Below, piece by piece: positions 627-23,010 of a stretch of 23,792 bases of DNA. The notes below the pieces were generated by a model. It worked only from the letters and a program-made list of their open reading frames with translations, was not told where the DNA came from and searched no databases. The stretch comes from a virus, in the IMG/VR virus record IMGVR_UViG_3300010883_000477, positions 1 through 23,792 of that record; one strand, given 5' to 3'. How positions within the stretch are numbered: the first letter of the stretch is position 1; each line of letters opens with the position of its first letter. The translations under genes and the position numbers were made by a program.

Positions 627-657
627 AAAATAAATTAAAAAAGTTTATATATTAATA
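627..657 (+). promoter_or_regulatory. Copy 1 of conserved AT-rich upstream motif (candidate phage promoter)
   Basis: Bases 627-639 read AAAATAAATTAAA, followed by four variable bases and TTTATATATTAATA at 644-657. The same two blocks with the same 4-nt gap occur upstream of the genes at 7574, 9485 and 11724. Here the motif ends 11 nt before the start codon; in the other three it runs into the ATG. It sits in the 47-nt gap between terminase and tail chaperone. A promoter role is inferred. Confidence 0.6.
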
Positions 658-668
658 AGTAAAAGAGT

Positions 669-1325
669 ATGGAAGTAAATTTAAGAATACCTACAAGCCT
701 AAACGAGATAACTCTAGGACAGTACCAAGAGTTTGTTAAGTTAGAACAAGAGCTAAAAGATAGTACAGAAGTTTCAATACAATTAAAGATGATTGAAATA
801 TTTTGTAGTGTACCTGAGGCTGTGGTGCGAAGTATGAAAGCTACAGACATAGCAGAGATATGCGAGATTATAAATACTATGTTTGACACCGATAGTCAGC
901 TTATAAGTAAGTTCACTTTAAAGGGTGTAGATTATGGTTTTATTCCAGAGTTAGATAATATGAGCTTCGGAGAATATATGGACTTAGATACTTTCATAGG
1001 AGACAATGATAATTTACACAGAGCTTTGAACGTATTGTTTAGACCTATAAAGCTTAATAAGGGTAGTAGGTATATTATAGAAGACTATGAGCCTAACGAT
1101 AGCGAAGTAGCAAAAGACTTTCCTTTAGATGTAGTACTTGGTGCTATTGTTTTTTTTTACACTTTAGGAAAGGACTTGTCGACAGTTATGCTGAACTCTT
1201 TGGACAAGAAGAACGAGAAGGATTTAGCACAGTATCTAATTTCACAGCAAAGTATGGATGGTTCAATTCACTCTATGCAATCGCTAACGGAGATATTACA
1301 AAGTTTGAAAATATCACTAAACTAA
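669..1325 (+). CDS. Tail assembly chaperone, short (G-type) form
   Basis: This 218-aa protein lies upstream of the tape measure gene, as tail assembly chaperones do, and would bind the tape measure protein during tail assembly. Recognisable features are an N-terminal EITLGQYQEF segment, a central FGEYMDLDTFIG followed by LNVLFRPI and YIIEDYEPN, and GAIVFFYTLGKDL near residue 155. I recognise this combination from uncharacterised proteins of Bacteroidota phages. The zero frame ends at 1325 with QSLTEILQSLKISLN. The -1 frame is open from 1103 to 1411 and encodes a clearly protein-like sequence, so the gene probably makes short and long forms by frameshifting, as lambda G/GT does. The chaperone assignment rests on context and on this frameshift architecture, not on a catalytic motif. 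Confidence 0.65.
   Translation: MEVNLRIPTSLNEITLGQYQEFVKLEQELKDSTEVSIQLKMIEIFCSVPEAVVRSMKATDIAEICEIINTMFDTDSQLISKFTLKGVDYGFIPELDNMSFGEYMDLDTFIGDNDNLHRALNVLFRPIKLNKGSRYIIEDYEPNDSEVAKDFPLDVVLGAIVFFYTLGKDLSTVMLNSLDKKNEKDLAQYLISQQSMDGSIHSMQSLTEILQSLKISLN
1151..1157 (+). other. Candidate -1 ribosomal frameshift slippery heptamer
   Basis: A nine-T run at 1150-1158 gives zero-frame codons GTT TTT TTT TAC, so 1151-1157 is a perfect T TTT TTT slippery heptamer. Slipping by -1 enters the frame that stays open to 1411. The -1 frame is open only from 1103, so any slip must lie between 1103 and 1325; this is the only classical heptamer I found there. A homopolymer sequencing error is the main alternative. 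Confidence 0.5.
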
Positions 1326-1411
1326 ACGTACACGAGTGTTTAACATTCTTAGAATATACAAAAGAGAAAAACCAAATAGAAGCAGCACAGATAAAAAATA
1401 AATTTAACTAA
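1157..1411 (+). CDS. -1 frame extension of the tail chaperone (T part of GT-type fusion)
   Basis: The -1 frame downstream of the T run encodes about 84 residues ending at the TAA at 1409-1411, two bases before the next ATG at 1413. Its C-terminal half reads as a real protein: FTAKYGWFNSLYAIANGD, then ITKLNVHECLTFLEYTKEK. I associate the pattern W/Y-GW-slyaiA-GDi with a second tail-chaperone domain in Bacteroidota phages. No ATG, GTG or TTG was found in this frame from about 1127 on, so it is unlikely to be an independent gene. If the slip occurs at 1151-1157, the fusion is about 247 residues. The slip point is inferred and could lie downstream. Confidence 0.65.
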   Translation, partial: LHFRKGLVDSYAELFGQEEREGFSTVSNFTAKYGWFNSLYAIANGDITKFENITKLNVHECLTFLEYTKEKNQIEAAQIKNKFN

Positions 1412-1412
1412 A

Positions 1413-1883
1413 ATGAGTAATACAGGCATAAGGGGTTTTTACCAACTAACAGAAACAATTAAGACACAGCTATTAGCAGACGTAAACGTTAACACTGTTA
1501 CAACTGGGGATATATTCGACATAGACCTATCAAAGCAAAGCATCTTCCCTTTAAGTCATATTATAATAAACTCTATTACAACTCAAGAGCAGGTATTGGT
1601 ATTTAACATTACTGTTATGTCTATGGATATTGTAGACGAGAGCAAAGAAAAAACAGAGGATATATTCAGAGGTAATAATAACGAGCAGGATGTTCTTAAC
1701 ACTCAGTTAGCAGTATTAAATAAATTAGTAATGATATTGCGTAAAGGGGATTTATATAGTGATAAGTTTCAGCTTCAAGGAGATGCTACCTTAGAACCTT
1801 TCTATGAGCGGTTTGATAACCGTTTAGCTGGGTTTGCTGCTACTATGGATATCTTAATTCACAATGATATAAGCATATGTTAG
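1413..1883 (+). CDS. Probable tail terminator / tail completion protein
   Basis: A 156-aa protein with an N-terminal helix (GFYQLTETIKTQLL), a central strand-rich part (IFPLSHIIINSITT, VLVFNITVMSMDIV) and a C-terminal segment RLAGFAATMDILIHND. Size, predicted alpha/beta layout and a position next to a gp10-like neck gene fit a tail terminator, which caps the tail tube at its head-proximal end. There is no diagnostic motif, so this is a fold-and-context guess; another neck or tail component is possible. The gene starts two bases after the chaperone -1 frame stops and overlaps the next gene by 7 bases, suggesting one translationally coupled tail operon. Confidence 0.45.
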   Translation: MSNTGIRGFYQLTETIKTQLLADVNVNTVTTGDIFDIDLSKQSIFPLSHIIINSITTQEQVLVFNITVMSMDIVDESKEKTEDIFRGNNNEQDVLNTQLAVLNKLVMILRKGDLYSDKFQLQGDATLEPFYERFDNRLAGFAATMDILIHNDISIC

Positions 1884-2386
1884 CAGACCAATTCTTAAGA
1901 GATGAGTTAAACAAGTTTGCTAAGTATGTTATACAACAAAGTAGGAGTAACTTAACTAAGGGTAAAAAGAACTCTTCTAAGGAGCTTTATAATTCTCTAG
2001 GCTATGACATAAGCGAAGCTTCTGGTAAGACTTCCTTAGGGTTTGATATGGCTGATTATGGTAAGTTTCAAGATAGGGGTGTTAGTGGTACTGAGAAAAA
2101 ATATAATACACCTTATTCTTATACAACTAAAATGCCACCGCCTAAGGCTTTTGATAAATGGGTAGTAAGAAAAGGAATAGCACCAAGAGGTAAGGGTGGT
2201 AAGTTTGCGTCAAGAGAAGGAATTAAGTTTGCTATAGCTAGGTCTATTTACAAAAAAGGAATAAAGCCAAGTATGTTCTTTACAAAGCCTTTTGAAGCAG
2301 CTTTTAAGAGATTACCTGATGAGTTAGTAGAAGCTTATTCTATAGGGTTAGAGAAACAAATACAAGTAAACATAAACAAGAAATAA
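1877..2386 (+). CDS. HK97 gp10-like neck protein
   Basis: A 169-aa basic protein. Its N-terminal helical segment (ELNKFAKYVIQQSRSNL) is followed by a middle part with GFDMADYGKFQDRGVSG. The 'yg.fqd.G..g' element and the later GIKPSMFFTKPFEAAF are typical of the HK97 gp10/minor tail protein family, which helps join head and tail. It starts inside the previous gene and ends immediately before the ATG of the next, so it is part of the tail operon. I am fairly confident of the family because of the combined Y-G-K-FQDRG and P-x-x-FFTKP motifs, less so of the exact step in assembly. Confidence 0.62.
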   Translation: MLADQFLRDELNKFAKYVIQQSRSNLTKGKKNSSKELYNSLGYDISEASGKTSLGFDMADYGKFQDRGVSGTEKKYNTPYSYTTKMPPPKAFDKWVVRKGIAPRGKGGKFASREGIKFAIARSIYKKGIKPSMFFTKPFEAAFKRLPDELVEAYSIGLEKQIQVNINKK

Positions 2387-3568
2387 ATGGCAACAAAGAT
2401 TAATTTAAGAAGCCCTTACTATATAAAGGTATCTAAGACAGCTTTAACGTCTGTAGAACTTAAGCTATATATTTACACAGGTACATTCACAGCCAATGGT
2501 AGTGTAGCAGCAGGGACTTTAAGATATACAATTACTAAAAAACCCTTAGGCTCTAACGCCTATGTAGTGTTTGAGGTTAGTGAGCTTGTAAGAGACTATT
2601 TAGAAGTTGAGTTTAATGGGGATTATAATAGCGAAGCGGTTTGGCTTAATGCAATAGCAACTGTGACTGGTGGCTCTGGAAGTGAAACAGTAACTCCAGA
2701 TAATACTAATGGCTTTGTAGGTCTTGATGGTTATGGATATTTTGAAGAAGGCGCAAACCCTACACTAAGCACAACAGCGTTACAAACTAATAAAACAATA
2801 ATAGCTTTAGATGATAATTTATTTAGAGTTCCTGTTTTTGTTCCTGGAACGGAATCAGTTTCTTTATTGTATAAAGGGGAGGTTAAACAAGCTATTGACC
2901 TAAGCTCTGCTAGTGTGGATCAAACATCAGAGCAAATAAGATATATATCAGCAAATTCAACAAGTAGTGGCGATGTTAATTATGATTCTTTTGAAGAAAG
3001 GGTTTTAAATGATGGCGGCACTTTTGAAGGCAGTAGTTGTTTAAGTGAGTTTTTAGACAGTATATCTATTGATTTAATCGATGAAATATTTGTAGCTTCT
3101 AGTAGTGATGTGCAAGTGTTTAAAGTAAAAACATTAAATAAATGTTTATACACACCCATCAAAGTAACCTTTGTAAATAAGTTTGGAGCATTTCAAGACT
3201 TAATATTTTTTAAGAAGTCTATTGATAAAACAAGCGTAAAAGGAGAAAGCTACAAATCTTCAATCTTTGACTTAGCAACACTTACATATAAAATTTATCA
3301 GCACCAACTTACTCAGTTTATGGTTCAAGGCTCTGACAGTATTACAATGAATACTGGTTTTTTGCCTGAAGATTATAATCAAGTTATTGAGCAGCTAATG
3401 TTAAGCGAACAAGTGTGGGCTACATTTGTAACAGATACAGAAGAACTAATACGACCATTAGTTCCAAAGACAAAATCTTTCACACATAAAACACACTTAA
3501 ACGATAAGCTAATAAATTATACAATCGATTTTGATATAGCTAATAATAAAATAAATAATATTAGATAG
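2387..3568 (+). CDS. Large tail/virion structural protein of Bacteroidota-phage type
   Basis: A 393-aa protein starting directly after the preceding stop and ending directly before the next ATG. The N-terminal third is strand-rich (INLRSPYYIKVSK, VELKLYIYTGTF, AYVVFEVSELVRDYLEVEF) and looks like an Ig-like or fibronectin-like beta domain. The C-terminal part is mixed and ends LINYTIDFDIANNKINNIR. I do not know a biochemical role. Its place between neck proteins and tape measure, and its pairing with the 678-aa gene, suggest a component of the tail or tail tip. No signal peptide, membrane segment or enzymatic motif is visible. Confidence 0.5.
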   Translation: MATKINLRSPYYIKVSKTALTSVELKLYIYTGTFTANGSVAAGTLRYTITKKPLGSNAYVVFEVSELVRDYLEVEFNGDYNSEAVWLNAIATVTGGSGSETVTPDNTNGFVGLDGYGYFEEGANPTLSTTALQTNKTIIALDDNLFRVPVFVPGTESVSLLYKGEVKQAIDLSSASVDQTSEQIRYISANSTSSGDVNYDSFEERVLNDGGTFEGSSCLSEFLDSISIDLIDEIFVASSSDVQVFKVKTLNKCLYTPIKVTFVNKFGAFQDLIFFKKSIDKTSVKGESYKSSIFDLATLTYKIYQHQLTQFMVQGSDSITMNTGFLPEDYNQVIEQLMLSEQVWATFVTDTEELIRPLVPKTKSFTHKTHLNDKLINYTIDFDIANNKINNIR

Positions 3569-5605
3569 ATGCAAACCATTGAGCTATATATTCAAGGGCA
3601 AAGATTAGATTTATTTGATGATGAATCTGTATCATTAAACCAAACTATTAAAAACGCTAGAGACGTTTCAAAGCTGTTTACTGACTTTACTCAGACCTTT
3701 AATGTGCCAGCATCTAAAACAAATAATAAGATATTTAAACACTACTATAATTTTGATATCGTTGGAGGTTTTGATGCAAGAATTAAAGTTGCTGGAACTA
3801 TTGAGCTTAATAGCTTTCCGTTTAAAGATGGTAAAATAAAACTTGAGGGGGTCAGCTTAAAAGAAAATCAAGCTTACGCATATAAAATTACATTCTTTGG
3901 TAATACTGTAAACCTTAAAGACTTAGTAGGCGAAGACAAATTAAATCAATTAGTTAGTTTAAATGCCTTGAATTTAGATTACAATTCAACTACAATAAAA
4001 TCAAAGCTACAACTAGACCCTTCCGTTTCTGGTAATGACATTATAACGCCTTTAATTACTTCAGGAGCTAGTGGAACATCATCAAGATTATATTATAATT
4101 CAGGCGCTACTGCAACAGCAGACGGAAATTTACATTATAATTCAGGCGGTGGCACAAATGCTAACGGAGTTTTATGGAGCGATTTAAAATATGCTATAAG
4201 AATACGAAAAATTGTGGAGGCTATTGGTACTCAATATGGTTTAACGTTTTCTAGTGATTTCTTTAACTCAACAAACTTAGCTTATAATGATTTGTTTATG
4301 TGGTTACATAGAAAAAAAGGGAAAGTTGAAAGCGGTTCAGGAACTGATTTTGTCAATACTGTAGATGGCTGGAGTGTAGCAACTGGCGTTCAGTCTGAAA
4401 TGGTTAATTCATCAACCTTCCGAATTACAAACACCTCTAATGTAATTGATTTTTTTATATCATTTACAAATAATAGTTCTATTTCAGCGGAAGCCGTTGT
4501 AAAAAGAGACGGGCAAACTGTAGCAGCCCAAAAAGTTGACGGAAAGGCGTTTGGCGCTCCGCCCGCTCTTACAATTATTATCTTAACTCCATATGTAAAT
4601 CAAGGCTCTGAGTACACTGTTACTTTAAATTACAATAATAATAGTATTAATTTTTCCAATATAAGGTGGCTAATGTCTTATAGTGGAGGAAGCGATATTT
4701 TTGATACTGGCTCATATGTAGCTCCAGCGGCTTTTGAGTTTAACATAACTTCACAAATACCAGACATTAAAGTAATAGACTTTCTTACTGGTTTGTTTAA
4801 AATGTTTAATTTAGTAGCTTTTTTAGATAGCTCAGGAACTGTTGTAGTTAATACTTTAGATAACTTTTATACTGGAGGAAACAATTACGATATAAGCAGT
4901 TTTATAGATATAAACACTAGCAATGTAAGCGTAGCACTACCCTACAAAGAGATAGTTTTTGCCTATAAAGACAACAAGACATTTTTAGCAGCAATACATA
5001 GCCAACTATTTAGCTACACTTGGGCAAAAGAAGATTATACAGGAGGCGAAAATTTAGACGGAAGTATTTATAAAGTAGAACTGCCTTTTGGTCATTTTAA
5101 ATTTGAAAGGATAAAAGACGTTGCAGATAGCAATAATACTACTATCCAATGGGGTTACTGTGTAGACGACAACCAAGAACCATATATAGGCGCGCCTTTT
5201 TTATTCTACCCAATAAAAGTAACAAGCACGCAATATTCAATATCTTTTAGAGATATAATTGGGCATTCAGAACTAACAAACTATAATGTCCCTAGTAATT
5301 CTTTAGCGTTAGACCCTACAACTTCTAAGGAAAACATAAACTTTAAAAACGAGCTAAACGAATATACAGGAAACACAGATTTTACAGATACTTTATTTCA
5401 AAAATACTACTCCAATTATATAACGGACATCTTTAATAACAAAAACAGATTAACTAAGGTTACTGCTTATTTGCCTTTAAAGATATTATTAAACTTCACT
5501 CTAGCAGATAGATTTGATATTAATGGGAATAGATATAAAATAAACTCAATTAAGACTAACCTAAAAACTGGTAAATCAGACATAGAACTATTAAACGAAT
5601 TATGA
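3569..5605 (+). CDS. Putative tail tip / baseplate structural protein
   Basis: A 678-aa protein that begins right after the preceding stop codon. The N-terminus (IELYIQGQRLDLFDDESV, then SKLFTDFTQTFNVPASKTN) and a following DARIKVAGTIEL segment are strand-rich; I recognise the pattern from large Bacteroidota phage structural proteins. The middle is rich in Gly/Ser/Thr/Asn, as in adhesive or fibre-like tail parts, and the C-terminus (FTLADRFDINGNRYKIN) again looks like beta structure. A distal-tail or baseplate hub role is inferred from size and location near the tape measure. The gene overlaps the next small gene by 4 bases (ATGA). Confidence 0.5.
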   Translation: MQTIELYIQGQRLDLFDDESVSLNQTIKNARDVSKLFTDFTQTFNVPASKTNNKIFKHYYNFDIVGGFDARIKVAGTIELNSFPFKDGKIKLEGVSLKENQAYAYKITFFGNTVNLKDLVGEDKLNQLVSLNALNLDYNSTTIKSKLQLDPSVSGNDIITPLITSGASGTSSRLYYNSGATATADGNLHYNSGGGTNANGVLWSDLKYAIRIRKIVEAIGTQYGLTFSSDFFNSTNLAYNDLFMWLHRKKGKVESGSGTDFVNTVDGWSVATGVQSEMVNSSTFRITNTSNVIDFFISFTNNSSISAEAVVKRDGQTVAAQKVDGKAFGAPPALTIIILTPYVNQGSEYTVTLNYNNNSINFSNIRWLMSYSGGSDIFDTGSYVAPAAFEFNITSQIPDIKVIDFLTGLFKMFNLVAFLDSSGTVVVNTLDNFYTGGNNYDISSFIDINTSNVSVALPYKEIVFAYKDNKTFLAAIHSQLFSYTWAKEDYTGGENLDGSIYKVELPFGHFKFERIKDVADSNNTTIQWGYCVDDNQEPYIGAPFLFYPIKVTSTQYSISFRDIIGHSELTNYNVPSNSLALDPTTSKENINFKNELNEYTGNTDFTDTLFQKYYSNYITDIFNNKNRLTKVTAYLPLKILLNFTLADRFDINGNRYKINSIKTNLKTGKSDIELLNEL

Positions 5606-5742
5606 TAAAACTAATACTAGAGGGTTTAAAATACGCTAACGGAGAGACTGAGTCTATAAGAATAGCACAAGGGAAGTACAAACTACCTACGACATTAAAA
5701 GAGGGTTACAAAGCACTTAAACAAGAAATAAAATGGCAATAG
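5602..5742 (+). CDS. 46-aa small protein before the tape measure gene
   Basis: The ATG at 5602 overlaps the TGA of the 678-aa gene, and the frame ends at 5742, ten bases into the tape measure gene, so it is coupled on both sides. The 46-residue product is basic, with ILEGLKYANGETESIRIAQG and then TLKEGYKALKQEIKWQ. No known function. Overlaps at both ends and a codon usage like its neighbours argue for a real gene; it may be a small tail assembly factor. Confidence 0.6.
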   Translation: MIKLILEGLKYANGETESIRIAQGKYKLPTTLKEGYKALKQEIKWQ

Positions 5743-7538
5743 AAAAAACAATTAATATTGATGTGCAAAGTAAAGATGCCTTAGCTGGTATTAAATCTAT
5801 AGATAGTGGTTTAACTGGACTTGATAAAAGTGCTGAAAAAGGTTCTAAAGGCGTTGGGGGTGTATCAAAAGCTTTTAAAGGCTTAGGCACTGCAATTAAA
5901 GCTGCTGGTATTGGTTTAGTAATTGCTGCTTTAGCTAAACTTTCTGAAATATTTATGCAAAACCAGAAAGTAGCAGATTTATTTAATACAGCTTTTGAAG
6001 CGGTAAGCTTAGCCTTTAATGATTTTGTAAGCTTTGCAGTAAATAGTACAAGTGGCATTATTAAGTTCTTTGATGCTATATTTAAAAACCCGTTAGAGTC
6101 TTTAAAAAGTTTTGCAGATGCTTTTAAAAAGAACATTCAAGAAAGGTTTGATAGTTATTTAGACACGTTAGGATATTTAGCTAGTGCTGTTAAAAAAGTA
6201 TTTAGTGGAGATTTTGCAGGAGCTTTAGATGATGTTAAAAACGCTGGTAAAGAAAGTTTAGATGTATTAACTGGGGTTAATGATTCTTTTGATAAAGGTA
6301 AAGAGTTTATAGAGAAAACAACAAAAGCAGTAAAAGACTATGTAACTGAAACAGTAAGTGCTGCAACTGCAAACGTTCAACTTCAAAAACAAGCTGAGTT
6401 AGCTATCGTTTTAAATCAAGGTTTAATTGAAAAATATGACAGGCAAGCCGAACTCCTTAGGCAGGTAAGGGATGACGAGTCTAAAGGCATAGAAGAAAGA
6501 ATACAAGCGAATAAGGATTTAGCTAAGGTTTTAGACGACCAAGAGAAAGCAATGAAATCAAACGCTGCTATTCAAGTCGCGGCAGCTCAAACTGAATTAA
6601 ATAAAAACAAAGAAAATATAGAGCTTCAAAAAGCATATCAAGAGGCTTTAAACGAACAAGCAGGAATAGAGGCACAGATAACAGGATTTAGAAGCGAACA
6701 ACAAACCAATACAAACTCTTTACTAAGGGAGCAGAAAGAACTACAAAACGAATTAGCATTGATTGGTAAGTCTCAAAGGGATATAGAGAGAGAAGAATTA
6801 GCACAGGAATTAGAATTAAAAAAAGAGTTAATAAATAGAGAGGTTACTGACATAATAGAAAGAGACGCTTTACTATTAGCAGCTAAAACAGAATTTGATA
6901 CACAATTATTAGAGCTGAACACTCAATTTGATGAAGAAGATATAGCTGCTCAAACTAAAAAACAAGAGGAAGAGGAAGCATTAAGACAAAAAACAAGAAA
7001 TGAATTAATAGCAGAAAAAGAAGCTAAAGCAGCAATTCAATTAGCGTCTATTGGTGTAGCTGAAAAAGGTATAGCATTAGGTAAACAATTAGCAGGTAAA
7101 AACAAGGCTATTCAAAAAGCTTTGTTAATTGCTGAGAATGCTGCTGGTATTGCTAAAATATTAATAAATACAGGGGTTGCTAATGCTAAGGCAGTAGCTA
7201 CATCTCCAGTGACACTCGGACAACCTTGGGTTACAATAAACTCTTTAAGTGCTGGGTTAGGTATTGCTGGAAGTATTGCTGCAACTGCTAAAGGGTTAAG
7301 TGCTTTGGGTGGTGGTAGTGCTGGAAGCAAGCCAGATGTATCGTCTGGTGCTTCTGGTGGTGGTTCTGCTCCAGCCCCCCCTGCTTTTAACGTTGTAGGC
7401 TCAAGTGATTCAAATCAATTAGCAGATGCAATCGGTGGACAGTCTCAACAGCCAGTACAAGCTTTCGTTGTAGCTAATGATGTAACAACAGCACAAAGCT
7501 TACAGAACAATATTGTTGAAGGTGCTACAATAGGATAA
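5733..7538 (+). CDS. Tail tape measure protein
   Basis: A 601-aa protein with a hydrophobic Ala/Gly-rich segment at about residues 56-72 (AAGIGLVIAALAKLSEIF), typical of tape measure proteins. Long Lys/Glu/Ala/Gln coiled-coil stretches run from about 200 to 460, and a second Ala/Gly-rich hydrophobic part at about 470-530 is followed by a low-complexity Gly/Ser/Pro linker. Tape measure proteins sit inside the tail tube, set its length and can help DNA enter the cell. At the usual 0.15 nm per residue this length would correspond to a tail near 90 nm. Long open antisense frames over this gene are composition shadows. Confidence 0.87.
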   Translation: MAIEKTINIDVQSKDALAGIKSIDSGLTGLDKSAEKGSKGVGGVSKAFKGLGTAIKAAGIGLVIAALAKLSEIFMQNQKVADLFNTAFEAVSLAFNDFVSFAVNSTSGIIKFFDAIFKNPLESLKSFADAFKKNIQERFDSYLDTLGYLASAVKKVFSGDFAGALDDVKNAGKESLDVLTGVNDSFDKGKEFIEKTTKAVKDYVTETVSAATANVQLQKQAELAIVLNQGLIEKYDRQAELLRQVRDDESKGIEERIQANKDLAKVLDDQEKAMKSNAAIQVAAAQTELNKNKENIELQKAYQEALNEQAGIEAQITGFRSEQQTNTNSLLREQKELQNELALIGKSQRDIEREELAQELELKKELINREVTDIIERDALLLAAKTEFDTQLLELNTQFDEEDIAAQTKKQEEEEALRQKTRNELIAEKEAKAAIQLASIGVAEKGIALGKQLAGKNKAIQKALLIAENAAGIAKILINTGVANAKAVATSPVTLGQPWVTINSLSAGLGIAGSIAATAKGLSALGGGSAGSKPDVSSGASGGGSAPAPPAFNVVGSSDSNQLADAIGGQSQQPVQAFVVANDVTTAQSLQNNIVEGATIG

Positions 7539-7543
7539 AATAC

Positions 7544-7574
7544 AAAATAAATTAAAAACATTTATATAATAATA
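7544..7574 (+). promoter_or_regulatory. Copy 2 of conserved AT-rich upstream motif (candidate phage promoter)
   Basis: AAAATAAATTAAA at 7544-7556, four variable bases, then TTTATATAATAATA at 7561-7574, whose last A is the A of the protease start codon. This is the only sequence between the tape measure gene and the capsid block, which fits a promoter for a separate capsid transcript. Confidence 0.62.
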
Positions 7575-8746
7575 TGCGTATAGTAGAACTAATTTTAGAC
7601 GAAGACCAAGAAATAGGAATCGAAGCTATTAGCGTAGTGGAAAACCCAGCCATTGAAGAAGACTTTATTGCTCTTAAATCTCAAGAGTTTAAACTAGCTG
7701 AGGTTGACAAAGAGCGTAGGATATTAATGGGTGCTTTATTGATACCTAACAAGCCTATTTATAGACGTAACGGAGAAGATGAGTATTATATATATTTCTC
7801 AAAAGATACTGTCTTAAAAGCGTCTCAAATGTACTTAACACAAGGGAAGCAAAACAACTCTACATTAGAGCACCAATATGCAATCGAGGGATTAAGCTTA
7901 GTTGAGTCTTGGCTAGTAGAAGATAAGGTACACGACAAGAGCGTTAAGTACGGAATGGATTTGCCTTTAGGAACTTGGGTGGGTTCTGTAAAAGTAAACA
8001 ATGACAAAATCTGGAATGAGTTTGTAAAGACTGGTAAGGTTAAAGGGTTTAGTATTGAAGGGTATTTTGCTGACAAGATGGAACGCCCTAAGGAAGAGAT
8101 TAAAGACGAACTAGCTAAGATAGAAGAAGCTGAAGCAGATTATTTATTAAGCCAAGTAACAGCTATCATTAAAAACGATAAGCGAGTAAAAGGTGGTAAA
8201 AAAACAGTTTTAGAAAGCTATTCAGACTATCCTAGTGGTGTTAAGAATAACGCTAAAAGAGGGTTAGAACTTAACGAGAAAGTAGACAATAAATGTGCTA
8301 CTCAAGTAGGAAAGATAAGAGCCCAGCAATTAGCACAAGGAAAACCAATAAGCAAAGAAACTATAAAAAGAATGTTTAGCTATTTGTCAAGAGCTGAAGA
8401 GTATTATGACGAAGGAGTTTCTAAGGCTTGTGGTACTATATCTTATTTACTATGGGGTGGTAAAGCTGGTTTAAGATGGGCGGGTGGTAAGTTAAAAGAG
8501 TTAGAAAACTTAAGCCTTGCTTCTATGACAGTAAACGAAGATTTTGCTATTATAGATGATAGACTTGCATACTCAACAGAACAAAAAGCTAAAGAGATGT
8601 CTAACGATTTAGGATGCGACGGAATACACACACACGATTACGAGGGTAAGACTTGGTTTATGCCTTGTGAAAAGCATAGCGTAGAAATGTATGACAAGTG
8701 CCCAGAAGGTTACAAGAAGAAGGATGGTAAATGTATCAAAAACTAA
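7574..8746 (+). CDS. XkdF-like prohead protease with extra C-terminal domains
   Basis: A 390-aa protein whose first about 175 residues resemble the XkdF-like phage serine protease family (related to S78 prohead proteases). It opens with a short beta segment (IVELILDEDQEIGIEAIS) and ENPAI. The likely catalytic pair is His100 in STLEHQ and Ser160 in GFSIEG. Residues about 208-312 form a second domain (SYSDYPSGVKNNAKRG, CATQVGKIRAQQL, CGTISYLLWGGKAGL) seen in other phage maturation proteins; its role is unknown. The C-terminus has CDGIHTHDYEGKTWFMPCEKH and a CPEGYKKKDGKCIKN tail, perhaps metal-binding. It would process scaffold and/or internal proteins. It lies upstream of scaffold and capsid genes, as expected. 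Confidence 0.8.
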   Translation: MRIVELILDEDQEIGIEAISVVENPAIEEDFIALKSQEFKLAEVDKERRILMGALLIPNKPIYRRNGEDEYYIYFSKDTVLKASQMYLTQGKQNNSTLEHQYAIEGLSLVESWLVEDKVHDKSVKYGMDLPLGTWVGSVKVNNDKIWNEFVKTGKVKGFSIEGYFADKMERPKEEIKDELAKIEEAEADYLLSQVTAIIKNDKRVKGGKKTVLESYSDYPSGVKNNAKRGLELNEKVDNKCATQVGKIRAQQLAQGKPISKETIKRMFSYLSRAEEYYDEGVSKACGTISYLLWGGKAGLRWAGGKLKELENLSLASMTVNEDFAIIDDRLAYSTEQKAKEMSNDLGCDGIHTHDYEGKTWFMPCEKHSVEMYDKCPEGYKKKDGKCIKN

Positions 8747-8749
8747 TAA

Positions 8750-8899
8750 ATGATTAAAGACAAATCTAAAGAATTTATAACACCAAGTAAGACAAGCCCT
8801 AAAGGCAGTAGAAGAGGTGGTTGTTTATGTAAAGACAATACATACAAAACTAAGTGCTGTGATGGTAGCTTAAGAGCTCAAGGAATAGGAAACGTATAA
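8750..8899 (+). CDS. 49-aa Cys-rich mini-protein
   Basis: Three bases after the protease stop, an ATG at 8750 opens 49 codons. The product has a basic N-terminus and the motif GGCLCKDNTYKTKCCDG (Cys 25, 27, 36, 37) followed by LRAQGIGNV. The CxC-x8-CC arrangement suggests metal binding or a disulphide knot. I recognise this as a recurrent small protein of flavobacterial phages, but no function is known to me. Its position between protease and capsid genes suggests a role in the virion or its assembly. Confidence 0.75.
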   Translation: MIKDKSKEFITPSKTSPKGSRRGGCLCKDNTYKTKCCDGSLRAQGIGNV

Positions 8900-8917
8900 T
8901 AAATAAATATATAAAAA

Positions 8918-9448
8918 ATGAGTACATTGAACAGAGTTTTAAAGCAGTTGTCAAAAGCTGAAAAAGCACAAAAAAATAATACGGAGTTAACATCTCAAAA
9001 AGTAGAGTTAGGTATTGTTGACGATTTACAAAAATTAGAAATTTCATCACAGTCTATTATTAAAGAAGTTAAAGAAAAAAATGTTTTAATAGCTAGACAA
9101 GAAAAACTCTTAGCAAGCAATTTTAAAGATTTTAAAAAAGCTATTGATAATTCAGAAAAATTAAGAGACAAATTTTTTGATTTAGAAAATAAATACGAAA
9201 GTGCAAAACAAGCTAGTGATAAAGCAGATAAATTAAAAGAGGGTGCATCTAAAAATTTTCAAGATTTAAAAAAAGTTATTAAAAAAAATAAAGATAAAAA
9301 CGAGCCTAAAATAAAAGAGGCTCGAAAAAATATCGGTTTACTTGAAAAGCTTATTGACAACGCTGAGAAAATGGCAAAAGAACTAGGGGTTAAAATACCT
9401 ATCAATCAATATGTAAAAACTTTACAAAATTTAAGAAAGCTACTTTAA
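8918..9448 (+). CDS. Lys-rich coiled-coil protein, candidate internal capsid protein
   Basis: A 176-aa protein, almost entirely predicted helix, with 36 lysines by my count and a net positive charge near +14. Coiled-coil stretches cover about 30-130. No enzyme motif, signal peptide or membrane segment. Its N-terminus (STLNRVLKQL, residues 2-11) closely matches the C-terminus of the scaffold gene that follows (STLDRVLNKI). Scaffold C-termini commonly bind capsid protein, so this could be a targeting peptide that brings a basic, DNA-compatible protein into the prohead. T4 internal proteins carry comparable N-terminal targeting peptides. The gene is even richer in A than its neighbours and is flanked by AT-rich gaps, so it could be a recent insertion. 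The internal-protein role is inference. Confidence 0.5.
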   Translation: MSTLNRVLKQLSKAEKAQKNNTELTSQKVELGIVDDLQKLEISSQSIIKEVKEKNVLIARQEKLLASNFKDFKKAIDNSEKLRDKFFDLENKYESAKQASDKADKLKEGASKNFQDLKKVIKKNKDKNEPKIKEARKNIGLLEKLIDNAEKMAKELGVKIPINQYVKTLQNLRKLL

Positions 9449-9454
9449 AAATGC

Positions 9455-9485
9455 AAAATAAATTAAACTAAATTATATATAAGTA
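9455..9485 (+). promoter_or_regulatory. Copy 3 of conserved AT-rich upstream motif (candidate phage promoter)
   Basis: AAAATAAATTAAA at 9455-9467, four variable bases, then ATTATATATAAGTA at 9472-9485, whose last A is the first base of the scaffold start codon. It would drive scaffold and major capsid protein, the products needed in highest amount. Confidence 0.62.
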
Positions 9486-10084
9486 TGAAGTCAAACAATG
9501 TGATTAAAAAAATCAAGGATGTTTTAAACCTTAACGAAGAAGTTAAGTTAGAACAACAAGCTTTAGATAATGGTACTGTATTAGAGGCAGATTCATTTGA
9601 AGCAGATAACGAAGTATTTATCGTTACTGAAGACGAGCGTGTAGCTGTACCTGTTGGAGAGTATAAACTCGAAGACGGACGTATCTTAGTAGTAGCTGAA
9701 GAGGGAATTATCTCTGAGGTTAAAGAAGCTGGGAAAGAAGAAGAAGTAGTTGAAGAAGTAGAAGCTGAAGAAGATGATAAAGTTTATGCAACTAAAGAAG
9801 AACTTGCTGAGGTTAAAGAAATGATTGAAGAAATCAAAGCAATGTTAGAGCCCAAGGAAGACTTAAGCTCTGAGGATTTAGGGAATCTTATTACTGAAGA
9901 ACTTTCTAAGCACGAACTAAGCGAAGTACCACAAGAGGTACAAGAAAAATTAAACGAAGCAGCAGCTGAGCCTATTATGGCTAACCCAGAAGCTGATTCA
10001 ACAAACAAACCAAGTTTTAAGTTTGCACAAAACCGCAAGCCTTCAACTTTAGATAGAGTATTAAACAAAATAATTAACAACTAA
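9485..10084 (+). CDS. Capsid scaffolding protein
   Basis: A 199-aa, strongly acidic protein immediately upstream of the major capsid gene. The central part is Glu-rich (about residues 80-130) and helical (EELAEVKEMIEEIKAML), suggesting coiled-coil dimerisation. The N-terminal part contains a short beta-like element (VAVPVGEYKLEDGRILVV). The last about 25 residues turn basic (FKFAQNRKPSTLDRVLNKI), the usual layout for a capsid-binding C-terminal helix. Scaffold proteins guide prohead assembly and are removed by proteolysis or exit. The capsid protein that follows has no obvious N-terminal delta-domain, consistent with a separate scaffold. The assignment is by context and composition. Confidence 0.72.
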   Translation: MKSNNVIKKIKDVLNLNEEVKLEQQALDNGTVLEADSFEADNEVFIVTEDERVAVPVGEYKLEDGRILVVAEEGIISEVKEAGKEEEVVEEVEAEEDDKVYATKEELAEVKEMIEEIKAMLEPKEDLSSEDLGNLITEELSKHELSEVPQEVQEKLNEAAAEPIMANPEADSTNKPSFKFAQNRKPSTLDRVLNKIINN

Positions 10085-10095
10085 AATTAAATTAA

Positions 10096-11028
10096 ATGGC
10101 TAATCCAACGATTACAAACTCCTCATATGCTGGGGAATTCGCAGGGAAGTACTTAGGTGCTGCTCTATTATCTGCTTCAACTTTAGACGCTGGAGCAATT
10201 ACAATACTGCCTAACATCAAGTACAAGGCAGCTATGAAAGTAGGAACTTTCTCTAACTTAGTACGTTCAGCAGACTGTGATTTTGATTCTACAACTTCTG
10301 GACTTACTTTAACAGAAAAAGTATTAACACCTTCTGAACTACAAGTAAACCTACAAATCTGTAAGAAAGAATTACACGCAGACTGGGAAGCTGCTCAAAT
10401 GGGCTTTAGTGCTTTTGACGAATTGCCTCCTTTATTTTCTGACTATGTTATTTCAAGAGTAGCTGCTGAGGTTGCTAACGCTACTGAAACTTCTATCTGG
10501 AGTGGTGCAGCTGGAGAAGGTTCTTTTGATGGATTCTTACAAGTAGCTTTAGCTGATAATGATGTACACGATATTACTGCCGTAGCTATTGATAGCTCAA
10601 ACGTTATCGCTCAGTTAGGTTCTGTTGTAGATAGCGCTGTTGCTAACGCACCAGCTATTTTAGGTGAATCAGATTTAACTCTTTACGTTTCAACTAACGT
10701 AGCACAAGCTTATATTAGAGCTTTAGGTGGATTTGCTGCAACTATTGGTGGTGCTGGTACAGATAACAAAGGAACACAATGGTACAATGGTGGTGCTTTA
10801 TCTTTTGAAGGTATTAACATCTTTGTAGCAAAAGGATTTGGAAGCAACAAAATGCTTTTGAGCCCTAAGTCAAATTTATTTTTCGGCACAGGGCTTTTGG
10901 ACGACAGAAACGAAGTAAGAGTAATTGATATGTCTGACACTGATGGGTCTCAAAATGTACGCGTCGTTATGCGTTACACTGCAGGGGTACAAATCGGAGT
11001 AGGTTCGTCTATCGTGCTTTATTCTTAA
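10096..11028 (+). CDS. Major capsid protein (HK97-fold type)
   Basis: A 310-aa protein, Ala/Gly/Ser-rich, directly downstream of the scaffold. A PNIKYKAAMKVG-like N-terminal arm, a helical spine region (LFSDYVISRVAAEVANATE) and a final strand-rich part (VRVVMRYTAGVQIGVGSSI) fit an HK97-fold capsid protein of the Bacteroidota-phage type. It uses more C/G-ending codons than its neighbours, as highly expressed genes often do. The gene is followed by a strong intrinsic terminator at 11051-11079, which also fits a highly expressed late gene. I am confident that it is the capsid protein, because of its context between scaffold and terminator and its composition; the fold itself is inferred. Confidence 0.85.
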   Translation: MANPTITNSSYAGEFAGKYLGAALLSASTLDAGAITILPNIKYKAAMKVGTFSNLVRSADCDFDSTTSGLTLTEKVLTPSELQVNLQICKKELHADWEAAQMGFSAFDELPPLFSDYVISRVAAEVANATETSIWSGAAGEGSFDGFLQVALADNDVHDITAVAIDSSNVIAQLGSVVDSAVANAPAILGESDLTLYVSTNVAQAYIRALGGFAATIGGAGTDNKGTQWYNGGALSFEGINIFVAKGFGSNKMLLSPKSNLFFGTGLLDDRNEVRVIDMSDTDGSQNVRVVMRYTAGVQIGVGSSIVLYS

Positions 11029-11050
11029 TTACTAACTAACTGATATTAAG

Positions 11051-11079
11051 GGGTGGGCAAAAACTGCCTACCCTTTTTT
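11051..11079 (+). terminator. Intrinsic terminator after the capsid gene
   Basis: Stem 11051-11059 (GGGTGGGCA) pairs with 11065-11073 (TGCCTACCC), with one G-T pair and loop AAAAC, followed by six T at 11074-11079. It would end or attenuate the scaffold-capsid transcript. The tail-tube gene starts 19 bases later without an obvious promoter, so partial read-through is likely. Confidence 0.87.
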
Positions 11080-11097
11080 ATTTAAAATCAAAAAAAT

Positions 11098-11637
11098 ATG
11101 GCTTGTGCAATAACAAAAGGTAGAGGGGTAGGATGTAAAACCGCCTTTGCTGGAATTAAAAATATTTACATTATAGATTATAGTGCAGTGGTTGCTGCTT
11201 TGACAGACACTGCTGGGACTGTAACATTACCAACGGATGACACAGCTGAGTTCTTCAAGTTTGAAGTAAAAGGCGGTCAAACATCACTTGAAACAAGTGT
11301 GACATCGAGTAGAGAAAACGGGACGACATTTTACGAAAGTACTTTAAACATTACTTTCCAACTGTTAGACGTAGCAACTCAAGAAGAGATTAAGCTTCTA
11401 AATAGAGGTCGTGCTCAGTATGTGGTAGAGCTTTATCCAAACGGAGCAGGGGTTACTAAGTATTTACTTGTAGGTAAAGACAACGGTGCTGAAATCACAG
11501 GTGGTACTATCGTTTCTGGTGCTGCTGCTGGAGATTTACAAGGATTTACACTAACAGCGGTTGCAACTGAGGTTAATCCTCCGTTCTTCTGTACTGTTCC
11601 AGATATTGATGCTGCTACTTCAATAGTACCAGCTTAG
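11098..11637 (+). CDS. Major tail tube protein
   Basis: A 179-aa protein starting MACAITKGRGVGCKTAFAGI. It has a strand-rich centre (FFKFEVKGGQTSLETSV, FYESTLNITFQLLD), then TQEEIKLLNRGRAQYVVEL and ITGGTIVSGAAAGDLQGFTL, and ends with Pro/Ala-rich sequence. I recognise the EIKLL...GR...VVE and GGTIVSG...GDL.G pattern from tail tube proteins of Bacteroidota phages. Tube proteins stack as hexamers into the tail conduit. The gene stands alone between two intrinsic terminators (11051-11079 and 11660-11689), suggesting that its mRNA level is tuned separately from its neighbours. Confidence 0.8.
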   Translation: MACAITKGRGVGCKTAFAGIKNIYIIDYSAVVAALTDTAGTVTLPTDDTAEFFKFEVKGGQTSLETSVTSSRENGTTFYESTLNITFQLLDVATQEEIKLLNRGRAQYVVELYPNGAGVTKYLLVGKDNGAEITGGTIVSGAAAGDLQGFTLTAVATEVNPPFFCTVPDIDAATSIVPA

Positions 11638-11659
11638 TATTTTATTAATATTTAAAATT

Positions 11660-11689
11660 AGCCTTTCCTTTTGGGAGGGCTTTTTTTTT
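11660..11689 (+). terminator. Intrinsic terminator after the tail tube gene
   Basis: Arms 11660-11668 (AGCCTTTCC) and 11673-11681 pair over nine positions with two G-T pairs, loop TTTT, followed by a nine-T run beginning at 11681. It should stop transcripts entering the portal region, so the next gene needs its own promoter, matching the motif copy at 11694-11724. Confidence 0.87.
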
Positions 11690-11693
11690 ATAC

Positions 11694-11724
11694 AAAATAA
11701 TTTAGTTTTGTTTATATATTAGTA
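11694..11724 (+). promoter_or_regulatory. Copy 4 of conserved AT-rich upstream motif (candidate phage promoter)
   Basis: AAAATAATTTAGT at 11694-11706, then TTTG, then TTTATATATTAGTA at 11711-11724, whose last A starts the next gene. It begins five bases after a strong terminator, the best single argument that this motif is a promoter. It contains a TTTG that could serve as a host -33 box but has no TAnnTTTG at the right distance. Confidence 0.65.
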
Positions 11725-12074
11725 TGAAGTTAATAGCAACAAACGGAGATAAAACTTTTAAGGTAATACCTAGACAGTTTATTAATGGAGCGATTACTGT
11801 AACCCTTACAAGTGAAAGCACTGGAACGGTTATAACTAAAACCCCTACAGCTTCAACAGATGTTAATTATATGTCTTTTACTGTGGCGTTTGGCACTCTA
11901 ACAGAAGCAGACTTTTACACGCTTGAAATTAAAAACGGGACTGTTATAATATACAAGGATAGAGTATTTTGTACAGACCAAACAGTAAACCAAGTAAACA
12001 ACGATTACTATTCTGTAAACGATGGCGTTTATAATACAGAAAATAGTTTTGATAACGATTATATTATTTTATGA
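11724..12074 (+). CDS. 116-aa protein preceding the portal, unknown function
   Basis: A mostly beta-strand protein (KTFKVIPRQFINGAITVTLT, FTVAFGTLTEADFYTLEIKN, VIIYKDRVFCTDQ) with an Asn/Tyr/Asp-rich C-terminus (DYYSVNDGVYNTENSFDND). It looks like a small beta-sandwich. The stop overlaps the portal start by 4 bases (ATGA), so the two are coupled, and it is the first gene of the transcript starting at the motif just upstream. A virion or head-assembly role is inferred from location only. Confidence 0.6.
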   Translation: MKLIATNGDKTFKVIPRQFINGAITVTLTSESTGTVITKTPTASTDVNYMSFTVAFGTLTEADFYTLEIKNGTVIIYKDRVFCTDQTVNQVNNDYYSVNDGVYNTENSFDNDYIIL

Positions 12075-13894
12075 ATGATTTACGAATAGTTAACTTAAGT
12101 AGTTACACAAGCCCAGAGATTGTAGAGAAGTCCAACAAGCAGTGGGTAGCTTATGGTAGTGATAATAATTTCTTTGCTCATCTAATCTCTAATTATGAGA
12201 ATAGCCCAACGAATAACGCTATTATAAACGCTATAAGCCAACAAATATACGGACTTGGCTTAGATGCTTCAGATTCAAGCAGAAGACCAGAGCAGTACGC
12301 TAAAATGCTTACAATGTTTCATAAGGACTGTGTACAAAAGCTTTGTTTTGATTTAAAGCTAATGGGTCAGTGTGCTATGCAGGTAATCTACTCGAAGGAC
12401 AGAAAGACTATTGCCCAAGTAGCTCATATTCCAGTAGAAAACCTAAGAGCTGAGAAGTGTAACGAAAAAGGAGAGATAGAAGGCTATTTTTACTCAGATG
12501 ATTGGTCTAATGTAAAACCAAGAACAGAATTAAAGAGAATACCTACTTATGGAAGTAGTAAAGAAAACATAGAGATTATATATGTAAAGCCTTATAGAGC
12601 TGGTTATAAGTATTACTCAAGCCCAGACTATACAGGGTGTTTACAATGGTGTGAGATTGAATCAGAGGTATCTAACTTTCACTTAAACAACGTACAAGGT
12701 AGTTTTAGCCCTAATACACTAATCCAATTTAACAACGGAACACCAAACGCAGAAGAAAGACAAAACCTAGAAAACAGAATAGCTCAGAAATTCACAGGCA
12801 CTGGTGGTAATAAGTTCATACTTGCTTTTAATGATAACCAAGACGCAGCTGCTACTGTTGAAACTTTACCTATTAGTGATGCTCACAATACTTACGAGTA
12901 TGTCTCAAGTCAAGCTACAGAGAAAATAATGGTAGGTCATAGGGTCGTATCTCCAATGCTTTACGGAATTAAGGACAGCACAGGGTTAGGAAACAACGCT
13001 GACGAGCTTAAAACTGCTTCTATATTAATGCAGAATTTAGTTATAGCACCATTTCAGCACCTTTTAATTGATGCTTTTGATTCTATTTTAGCTTATAATC
13101 AAATAAGCCTAAAGTTATATTTTAAAACTCTACAGCCTTTACAGTTTATAGACCTTGAAAACGTAGAAGACGAAGAAACAAAAGAAGAAGAAACAGGGGT
13201 TAAGTTGTCAAAAGAACTACCAGACGAAATAGGCACAGCTATTGCAGACGCATTAATAGACTTAGGACAAGACGAAACAGAGCTTTTAAGCGACTTTGAG
13301 GTAATAGATGAACGAGAAGTAGACTATGACGAAGAAAGCGGCTTAGATGAGGTTATAACAGACCTTAACAAACCTAAAGAAAAAAGTACACTAGCTAAAG
13401 TTTGGGAATTTGTAAGTACAGGAGTGGCAAAAAAAACAAAATCAAGTGAGCAGGATGGTACAAGCAAACAAACAAAAGAAGAGGGAAAAGAATTTTTAGT
13501 AAGATATGTTTATAATCCTGCAAAAACTAAATCTAATTCAAGACAGTTTTGTTCTAAAATGGTAAGTGCTGGAAAGGTTTATAGGAAAGAGGATATATTA
13601 GCAATGACTAAAAAAGCTGTTAATGCTGGATTTGGAAAAAATGGCTCTGAGAAATATTCTGTTTGGCTCTATAAGGGCGGGGCTCGATGTAGCCATCGCT
13701 GGTTTCGCAAAACTTATGTTAGAAAAATAGGTGGTAAAAGAATGGGTACAGAAATAAGCACTACAGAGGCAAGGTCAAGGGGTTTTAGACCTAAAGGTAA
13801 ACCAAACGCTCAGAAAGTACCTGTAGCACCTAAGGATATGAAGTATAAAGGTTATACTGCTGAATATTGGAACAAAATAGGATTTAAGAATTAA
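12071..13894 (+). CDS. Portal protein with fused C-terminal Cys/His domain
   Basis: A 607-aa protein. Residues 1 to about 400 have portal-like features: an N-terminal WVAYGSDNNFFAHLI, NNAIINAISQQIYGLGL, DLKLMGQCAMQVIYSK, then VGHRVVSPMLYGI and GLGNNADELKTASILMQNLV, close to a classical portal element at the end of the crown/stem region. An acidic linker follows (about 370-440). From about 474 a basic domain begins (FLVRYVYNPAKTKS, RQFCSKM, WLYKGGARCSHRWFRK), with Cys/His spacing that could bind metal. Portals form the dodecameric DNA channel at the capsid vertex. The extra domain may replace a separate minor head protein, as no MuF-like gene is seen nearby. Portal call strong, C-terminal role unknown. 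Confidence 0.83.
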   Translation: MNDLRIVNLSSYTSPEIVEKSNKQWVAYGSDNNFFAHLISNYENSPTNNAIINAISQQIYGLGLDASDSSRRPEQYAKMLTMFHKDCVQKLCFDLKLMGQCAMQVIYSKDRKTIAQVAHIPVENLRAEKCNEKGEIEGYFYSDDWSNVKPRTELKRIPTYGSSKENIEIIYVKPYRAGYKYYSSPDYTGCLQWCEIESEVSNFHLNNVQGSFSPNTLIQFNNGTPNAEERQNLENRIAQKFTGTGGNKFILAFNDNQDAAATVETLPISDAHNTYEYVSSQATEKIMVGHRVVSPMLYGIKDSTGLGNNADELKTASILMQNLVIAPFQHLLIDAFDSILAYNQISLKLYFKTLQPLQFIDLENVEDEETKEEETGVKLSKELPDEIGTAIADALIDLGQDETELLSDFEVIDEREVDYDEESGLDEVITDLNKPKEKSTLAKVWEFVSTGVAKKTKSSEQDGTSKQTKEEGKEFLVRYVYNPAKTKSNSRQFCSKMVSAGKVYRKEDILAMTKKAVNAGFGKNGSEKYSVWLYKGGARCSHRWFRKTYVRKIGGKRMGTEISTTEARSRGFRPKGKPNAQKVPVAPKDMKYKGYTAEYWNKIGFKN

Positions 13895-19179: not shown

Positions 19180-19207
19180 ACCTTTCATTTATGGAGGGTT
19201 TTTTTTT
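19180..19207 (+). terminator. Intrinsic terminator behind ninG-like gene
   Basis: Arms ACCTTTC (19180-19186) and GGAGGGT (19193-19199) with loop ATTTAT and a run of eight T (19200-19207). Two of the pairs are G-T. It directly precedes the next promoter. Confidence 0.8.
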
Positions 19208-19246
19208 GTTTATAATTTGTTTATTAAATATTTTTGTATATATTTG
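19205..19246 (+). promoter_or_regulatory. Strong Bacteroidota-type promoter with tandem -33 repeat
   Basis: TTTG at 19216-19219, 19 bases, then TATATTTG at 19239-19246 match the primary-sigma consensus of Bacteroidota (TTTG/TAnnTTTG). The block 19205-19224 is an 11-bp unit TTTGTTTATAA plus a partial second copy, and the identical 20 bases occur at 22968-22987. The transcript should start near 19252, about 20 bases before the ATG at 19273. Confidence 0.82.
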
Positions 19247-20412: not shown

Positions 20413-21285
20413 ATGACAGAAGACAAAACAACAGAAAATATGTTAATGGAACTCATAGCTGAAGAGTGTACTATTGACACTTCTGAAATTATGGATTACC
20501 CACCGACAGCTTTAAGCTTAGGAGAAAGTACAATACAATCTAAAGGGGGAGAGATTAAGTTTCCAATACCTATTGGAACGTATGGTAACTTCTCTTTTAT
20601 ACAAGCCCCACCAAAAAGCAAGAAAACTTTTTTTGTAAGTCTATTGGCTTCAGTGTATTTAAGTGGTGGTAATAACTTTGGGGGCAGGATAAAAGGACAC
20701 AGAGAAGGCAGGTGTTTAATGCACTTCGATACAGAACAGGGACATTGGCACGCTCAGAGAGTGTTTAAGAGAGTGCAGGATATGAGCATTACAAAAGATG
20801 TAGGGTGTTATAAAACATTCGCTTTAAGGACTGTAGGATATAAAGAAAGATTACAATTTATAGAGTACTGTTTAGAACAAAACAAAGGTAAGAATGGTTT
20901 AGTAGTTATAGACGGAGTAGCAGACCTTGTGAGCGATGTAAATAACTTAGAAGAAAGTAACCTATGCGTTCAAAAGATAATGCAATTAAGTGCTAAATAC
21001 GACTGTCATATTATTACAGTTATACACAGCAATTTTGGAAGCGACAAGCCTACAGGACACTTAGGCAGCTTCTTAGAGAAAAAGACAGAAACACAAATAC
21101 AATTAGAATTAAATACAACTAATAAAGAATGGGTTACAGTAAGCTGTAAGAGAAGCAGGGGTTATTCATTTGAAACGTTTAGCTTTAGTATAAATGAGTT
21201 TGGATTACCTTTTGTGATTACTGATTATGTTTTTGACCCTTTACAGCATTATGTACCCAGAACTTTAACTAAATCCACATTATGA
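20413..21285 (+). CDS. RecA-fold (AAA_25-like) ATPase, probable replicative helicase/RepA-type
   Basis: A 290-aa protein with a RecA-like core. The Walker A position reads QAPPKSKKTF (Lys71, Thr72). Walker B is NGLVVIDGVADLV (Asp167). IITVIHSNFG contains a sensor-like His (about 205), and later VSCKRSRGY follows. This arrangement resembles RepA/DnaB-like hexameric helicases or RadA/Sak4-type recombination ATPases. The Walker A loop is unusual: APPKSKKT replaces the first Gly and the Gly before Lys of GxxxxGK[ST]. Genes around it (SSB, NinG, nucleases) fit replication or recombination. It overlaps the next gene by four bases (ATGA). Confidence 0.73.
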   Translation: MTEDKTTENMLMELIAEECTIDTSEIMDYPPTALSLGESTIQSKGGEIKFPIPIGTYGNFSFIQAPPKSKKTFFVSLLASVYLSGGNNFGGRIKGHREGRCLMHFDTEQGHWHAQRVFKRVQDMSITKDVGCYKTFALRTVGYKERLQFIEYCLEQNKGKNGLVVIDGVADLVSDVNNLEESNLCVQKIMQLSAKYDCHIITVIHSNFGSDKPTGHLGSFLEKKTETQIQLELNTTNKEWVTVSCKRSRGYSFETFSFSINEFGLPFVITDYVFDPLQHYVPRTLTKSTL

Positions 21286-22967: not shown

Positions 22968-23010
22968 TTTGTTTATAATTTGTTTATAAGTATAATTTAT
23001 ATTATGTTTG
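22968..23010 (+). promoter_or_regulatory. Second Bacteroidota-type promoter, near-leaderless
   Basis: TTTG at 22979-22982, 20 bases, then TATGTTTG at 23003-23010. Upstream block 22968-22987 is identical to 19205-19224, including the 11-bp tandem TTTGTTTATAA. The next ATG is at 23015, only four bases beyond the -7 box, so the mRNA start would lie at or within a few bases of the start codon. Confidence 0.8.

Follow-up and report, generated by a model that had tools for sequence, protein, structure and literature searches.

Motif copies in the window

The window analysed here is the whole 23,792-nucleotide stretch of the IMG/VR virus record IMGVR_UViG_3300010883_000477. It covers part of the genome of a tailed phage, including genes for the terminase, protease, capsid, portal and tail, and a bipartite 31-nt motif occurs four times upstream of virion genes. 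The motif, the genes that follow it and a sigma factor gene of the same phage are the subject of this report. The source is taken to be a marine flavobacterial phage. According to the capsid protein, the only named relatives of the window are the Nonlabens phages P12024S/L (31% identity), and hundreds of relatives are found among uncultured viral contigs. No host or host prophage was found in the GTDB genomes searched with the capsid protein, and thus the host is taken only from the relative P12024S. The features of the late-gene region are as follows.

627..657, + strand: copy P2 of the putative late promoter; -10-like box TTATATA at 645-651
669..1325, + strand: gene g669, first in unit P2; PHROG 32199, weak tail-protein match
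7544..7574, + strand: copy P3 of the putative late promoter, ending on the A of the ATG; -10-like box TTATATA at 7562-7568
7574..8746, + strand: head maturation protease gene (Peptidase_S78_2 / XkdF-like)
9455..9485, + strand: copy P4 of the putative late promoter, ending on the A of the ATG; -10-like box TTATATA at 9473-9479
9485..10084, + strand: scaffold-like gene adjoining the major capsid gene on its 5' side; role suggested by position and a PHROG 24921 match
10096..11028, + strand: probable major capsid protein gene (virion structural PHROG 1623 / 11320), without a motif upstream
11660..11681, + strand: intrinsic-terminator-like stem and T run, just 5' of copy P5
11694..11724, + strand: copy P5 of the putative late promoter, ending on the A of the ATG; -10-like box TTATATA at 11712-11718
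11703..11710, + strand: host-type TAnnTTTG string (TAGTTTTG) within copy P5; possible overlapping host promoter
11724..12074, + strand: gene g11724, opening the portal unit
12071..13894, + strand: portal gene, unit P5

The first-pass annotation had placed four copies of the motif at 627-657, 7544-7574, 9455-9485 and 11694-11724. All of them are present there on the plus strand, with 1, 2, 2 and 3 mismatches to its consensus, and no copy appears in 100 dinucleotide-preserving shuffles of the window. The register described for the last three copies, in which the final base of the motif is the A of the ATG, is confirmed. In the first copy, the ATG is located 12 nt beyond the last A of the motif. 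The intrinsic terminator described before the fourth copy is also found, as a sequence pattern, at 11660-11681. The 4-nt gap between the two halves of the motif was described less exactly: these positions are the most variable stretch, but they lie within a loosely conserved spacer and do not form a discrete gap.

The motif in related phages

The search of related phage genomes that had been suggested as a check was performed with a position weight matrix, iterated over 162 related IMG/VR loci with a threshold of 18 bits. In total, 114 sites exceeded 18 bits, all of them on the sense strand. No site was detected on the opposite strand, in the reversed control or in the complemented control. 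Each of eight near-complete relatives has the A-type motif (the type of the window) at five sites and no more: before terS, g669, the protease gene, the scaffold-like gene and g11724. The window contains four of these five sites, and the terS site falls beyond its left edge. The motif adjoins the ATG (distance 0) at the protease gene, the scaffold-like gene and g11724; at g669 the distance is either 0 or 12 nt, and at terS it is about 17-31 nt. The genes within the units (capsid, g11098 and g13896) have no motif. Conserved N-terminal peptides (MKVNLRIP, MRIVELIL and MKxI) start at the fused ATG.

In the terS leaders, where the promoter is apart from the ATG, a short inverted repeat is often present (TTTGATTAATCAAA; TCAGTTAACTAATTAAAAACTGA), as in G006/G008 and G001/G011/G014. 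Perhaps this repeat tunes the translation of terS; some leaders have no predicted hairpin, and the others have a weak one (-2.4 to -3.9 kcal/mol).

A predicted phage-encoded sigma factor

One further gene of the window encodes the proposed reader of the motif.

21282..21773, + strand: divergent phage-encoded sigma factor resembling extracytoplasmic function (ECF) sigma factors; predicted fold sigma2 + sigma4

The protein matches the sigma factor family PHROG 1740 (E 0.0015), and its profile matches in the PDB are mostly ECF sigma factors. Among the sigma factors of 76 relatives, Sigma70_r2 is matched in 14 and Sigma70_r4_2 in 2 at E<=0.01. The AlphaFold2 model of the window protein (163 aa) has a mean predicted local distance difference test score of 83.6 and consists of two helical domains, with low confidence for residues 85-99. 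The best Foldseek matches of the model are ECF sigma factors. Residues 1-83 are fitted to the complex of sigmaE region 2 and -10 DNA (4lup) with a root-mean-square deviation of 2.6 for 78 residues, and residues 99-163 are fitted to the complex of sigmaE region 4 and -35 DNA (2h27) with a deviation of 3.0 for 65 residues. Thus, the predicted model has the architecture of ECF sigma factors (group 4), namely sigma2 and sigma4 alone with a short linker between them. In the relatives, the sigma gene is located upstream of the terminase gene. At the corresponding position of P12024S, gp33 is annotated as Sigma-70 region 2 and reaches the Pfam Sigma70_r2 cut-off. No match of the window sigma factor was obtained by tblastn against phage records; the P12024S sigma factor is too distant for this search.

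In region 2.4 (RGIYLNTHKK in the window), the phage sigma factors associated with CG-type boxes mostly have D at a position where the A-type (TT-box) sigma factors have N (LRSMFLD versus LRGIYLN). This position is a candidate for a specificity residue, with few independent changes.

Covariation of sigma factor and promoter

Among the near-complete relatives, 7 of 15 are without the A-type motif. In these seven, the sigma identity is only 25-44%, whereas the capsid identity is 69-81%. The relatives with a different sigma factor have another -10-like box at the corresponding genes, at an unchanged distance from the ATG. The box is CGTTATA in G003, G005, G009 and G013, CGATATA in G010, and AGTTAT[AT]TA in G002 and G012; AGTTATATA is also among the -10-like boxes of relatives in which the sigma factor differs and the capsid genes are similar. 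The boxes of more distant genomes are CGTTTAT (G024) and [AT]GTTATAAT (G027 and G030). G007, with a capsid identity of 54% and a sigma identity of 67%, retains the A-type motif. In the cultured phage P12024S, six annotated start codons (179, 3031, 5412, 23961, 25201 and 26802) each have a CGTTA box fused to them.

Late genes of the same genome have similar boxes, with an identity at -12 to -6 of 0.78 versus 0.56 when the genomes are shuffled (sd 0.02; 0/2000). The same genome-shuffle test detected no such likeness in the upstream regions of control genes. The distance between -10 boxes tracks the sigma distance given the capsid distance (0/5000), and the box does not significantly track the capsid given the sigma factor (781/5000). 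According to partial Mantel tests, the -10 box tracks sigma region 2 given region 4 (r 0.40, 3/2000) and does not track region 4 given region 2. The upstream block at -33 to -26 tracks region 4 given region 2 (r 0.49, 0/2000) and does not track region 2 given region 4. A separate covariation analysis showed the same pattern. In the set used for these tests, the g669 leader variants were brought back into register only in part, and the start codons of G025, G028, G029 and G031 are unsure; when these four genomes are omitted, the region-specific covariation becomes sharper. On the sigma tree the A-type promoters form a single clade, and on the capsid tree they require at least three changes. This region-specific covariation is the pattern expected if the phage sigma factor reads the motif sites.

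Register of the start codon

In the clades examined, including that of P12024S, the -10-like box is located at -12 to -6 relative to the A of the ATG (+1), the normal position of a -10 element. The ATG lies exactly at +12 from the start of the box at 75 sense sites and at 0 antisense sites in seven clades. A -10 box about 10-12 nt before the ATG characterizes leaderless genes (PMC3160421), and the fused sites show this spacing. As the box ends five bases before the ATG, the first transcribed base at most sites is expected to be the A of the ATG or a base no more than 1-2 positions from it. The register thus gives good support to the earlier suggestion of leaderless mRNA, and the late mRNAs would be leaderless or near-leaderless; a start a few bases away from the A is possible.

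Leaderless mRNAs are rare in Flavobacterium psychrophilum (5.5%; PMC9723704), and in Bacteroides thetaiotaomicron about 3.7% of the 5' untranslated regions are shorter than 10 nt (PMC7366714). Flavobacterial hosts do not use the Shine-Dalgarno sequence, and their initiation determinants are A at -3, -6, -12 and -13 (PMC6847099). All 34 A-type sites have T at -12; the 29 B-like sites have C or A there, with C in 23. In control genes of the A-type phages, A is found at this position in 33 of 38. At -3, T is found in 16 of 29 B-like sites. The determinants are therefore only partly present, and the motif looks as if it were kept for transcription and not as a signal for the ribosome.

Host-type promoter strings

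The absence of a host TAnnTTTG box, noted in the first-pass annotation for all four copies, is correct for three of them. The fourth copy (P5) contains TAGTTTTG at 11703-11710. Bacteroidota sigma-A promoters have TAnnTTTG at -12 to -5 and a TTTG near -33, which is weak in flavobacteria. The string in copy P5 is located at -21 and not at the sigma-A position. With this string, the copy may have a second, host-driven start. The TAnnTTTG string is absent at the protease and scaffold sites, in three of the four window copies and at every B-type site. Two further regions of the window contain similar strings.

19205..19246, + strand: promoter-like strings of the host type (TTTG / TAnnTTTG), preceding early/middle genes
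22979..23010, + strand: host-type TTTG / TATGTTTG promoter-like string directly 5' of the ORF at 23015

Bipartite host-type promoter matches in the window (3 versus 2.0 expected) are not above chance. Similar strings are present between the corresponding genes in several relatives, and the placement and recurrence of these strings are suggestive of, and consistent with, host-driven early transcription.

Interpretation of the motif

The best-supported reading is that the motif is a phage late promoter, read by the phage's own ECF-like sigma factor, with an expected start at or near the A of the ATG and mostly leaderless transcripts. We put the probability of this reading at roughly 0.82. The first-pass annotation had likewise proposed a phage-specific late promoter, and the placement at virion units, the sense-only sites, the terminator and the sigma covariation strongly support it. 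The term "late" refers to the virion gene content of the units and not to timing.

According to the proposed mechanism, transcription of the early and middle genes, among them the sigma gene at 21282-21773, would probably rely on the host sigma-A holoenzyme. The phage sigma factor would then direct the host core RNA polymerase to the promoters of terS, g669, the protease gene, the scaffold/capsid unit and the g11724/portal unit. Region 4 would read the upstream CAAAAT-like element at about -31 to -26, and region 2 would read the -10-like box at -12 to -6. Transcription would start at the A of the ATG or within 1-2 bases of it, giving leaderless or near-leaderless late mRNA; at terS, and at g669 in some phages, a leader of about 17-31 nt or of 12 nt, respectively, would be formed instead. 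The sites, their register, gene context and conservation, the predicted sigma fold and the covariation with the promoters are observations; direct binding of the sigma factor to the motif, late timing and the exact start site are inferred.

Several observations weigh against this reading. The window sigma factor matches Pfam Sigma70_r2 with E 0.014 and a score of 15.6, below the gathering cut-off of 24. Its whole-chain Foldseek E-values are about 2e-3, and the structure-match Z values of 8-10 are modest given that the proteins are helical. The Mantel and shuffle figures control shared ancestry only partly; when the A clade is excluded, the signal of the -10 box with region 2 remains (15/2000), whereas that of the -35 block with region 4 weakens (32/2000). 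With the 6-9 nt between box and start that are common in bacteria, transcription could also begin slightly downstream of the ATG, a few bases within the gene. Finally, the TAGTTTTG string of copy P5 is kept in 5 of the 8 distinct A-type sequences of the site.

This last point would fit promoters of the host primary sigma-A or of a host ECF sigma factor, with another function for the phage sigma factor. Such an origin is improbable, as TAnnTTTG is missing from the protease, scaffold and B-type sites, and the box type tracks the phage sigma factor beyond capsid relatedness and in a region-specific manner. A translation-initiation signal, such as a ribosome-binding element of a flavobacterial phage without Shine-Dalgarno sequences, would explain why the motif abuts the ATG at most sites in hosts that do not use that sequence (PMC6847099). 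However, the motif reaches -31, and its second conserved block covaries with sigma region 4. The motif also stands apart from the ATG at g669 and terS, and the genes inside the units do without it. Together with the non-conserved determinants (T at -12 and, in B-like sites, often at -3), these features make a signal for translation very unlikely. The separation from the ATG and the determinants also disfavour the combined promoter and translation signal offered earlier as an alternative.

The most serious competitor keeps the phage-sigma late promoters but places the starts several bases 5' of the ATG, giving mRNA with a short leader. An alignment of the A-type boxes on GTTTATA in place of TTATATA would put the start at about -3, and in other phage sigma systems the start sites differ by a few bases (6-9 bp; PMC8948821). 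The box, however, begins at -12 in every one of the clades A, B, C, D, E and P12024S, and CGATATA of G010 bridges CGTTATA and TTATATA without a shift. A short leader is thus possible but clearly the less probable arrangement. A non-transcriptional repeat, serving replication, packaging or recombination, would be AT-rich, repeated and located between genes, as the motif is; the strict orientation, the ATG register, the position at the starts of transcription units and the sigma covariation leave it almost no credibility.

Comparison with known systems

The T4 late sigma factor gp55 is also a small phage sigma factor that uses AT-rich, -10-like late promoters (TATAAATA). It has no region 4, uses no -35 element and depends on both the clamp and gp33. 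In contrast, the present phages have a conserved -35-like part, which covaries with region 4.

The closest parallel is the pair phiEco32 gp36 and phage 7-11 gp47. Divergent phage sigma factors act there (PMC8948821) with the host core at late promoters, diverged sigma factors use different promoters at corresponding genome positions, and the promoter of phage 7-11 is bipartite. The present genomes likewise combine a phage sigma factor with a common motif before the virion units of one genome. The hosts of these two phages, however, are enterobacterial, and the promoters are tAATGTAtA and GTAAtg-16-aCTA (PMC8948821). That system is biochemically proven, whereas the present one is known from sequence and predicted structure. 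The passages of that source used here report no fusion of start codon and promoter, which is a feature of the present phages.

The flavobacterial ECF promoter class SM6 has CGT in the -10 region, like the B-type and P12024S boxes (PMC9723704). SM6 differs in controlling a cellular regulon (low-nutrient response and type IX secretion genes), in a host with 5.5% leaderless mRNA, whereas most late units here would be leaderless. The motifs of phiKZ (TATG) and AR9 (AACA-N6-TA/G) are short, specific to late genes and tied to the start site, as here, and phage transcripts are described as often leaderless (PMC5312081). These phages, however, use multisubunit RNA polymerases of their own and not a sigma factor with the host core, and the AR9 leaders are 26-491 nt long.

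Thus, the switching of the host polymerase to late promoters by phage sigma factors is already established, and by analogy the present system would work like that of phiEco32 and 7-11. The present system stands apart most of all by its fixed fusion to the start codon, and also by the phylum of its hosts, its bipartite, ECF-like architecture and the length of the series of diverged pairs. No promoter analysis of this phage family was found in the open-licence literature, which also seems to contain no description of a start-codon-locked late regulon with numerous diverged pairs of sigma factor and promoter in a single phage family.

Neighbouring genes

The protease ORF (7574-8746) carries an additional stretch towards its C-terminus (residues about 210-318), which is common to Vibrio, haloarchaeal and other phage proteins, and a DUF3721 match at residues 333-369. 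The neighbouring ORFs 14502-15686 and 15880-17220 are apparently paralogous receptor-binding/tail-fibre proteins with similar C-termini. Of this pair, a LamG-like domain is confirmed only in 14502-15686.

Implications

It is somewhat more probable than its opposite that, in a large family of marine flavobacterial phages, essentially the whole late programme is leaderless, with an ECF-like sigma factor and promoters locked to the start codon in diverged, possibly orthogonal pairs. As a fast-evolving sigma factor would be combined with promoters locked on the start codon, the promoter and the translation start would be one element. The boxes of P12024S are fused to annotated starts, and therefore the idea is testable in an existing phage-host pair. 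The reading raises the question of how late messages are translated by flavobacterial ribosomes, which ignore the Shine-Dalgarno sequence and rarely meet leaderless mRNA (PMC9723704). The family may provide naturally occurring pairs of sigma factor and promoter, in which changes of region 2 accompany those of the -10 box, and changes of region 4 those of the -35 element. It also gives a sequence-level prediction of how widespread uncultured marine flavobacterial phages would switch to virion production.

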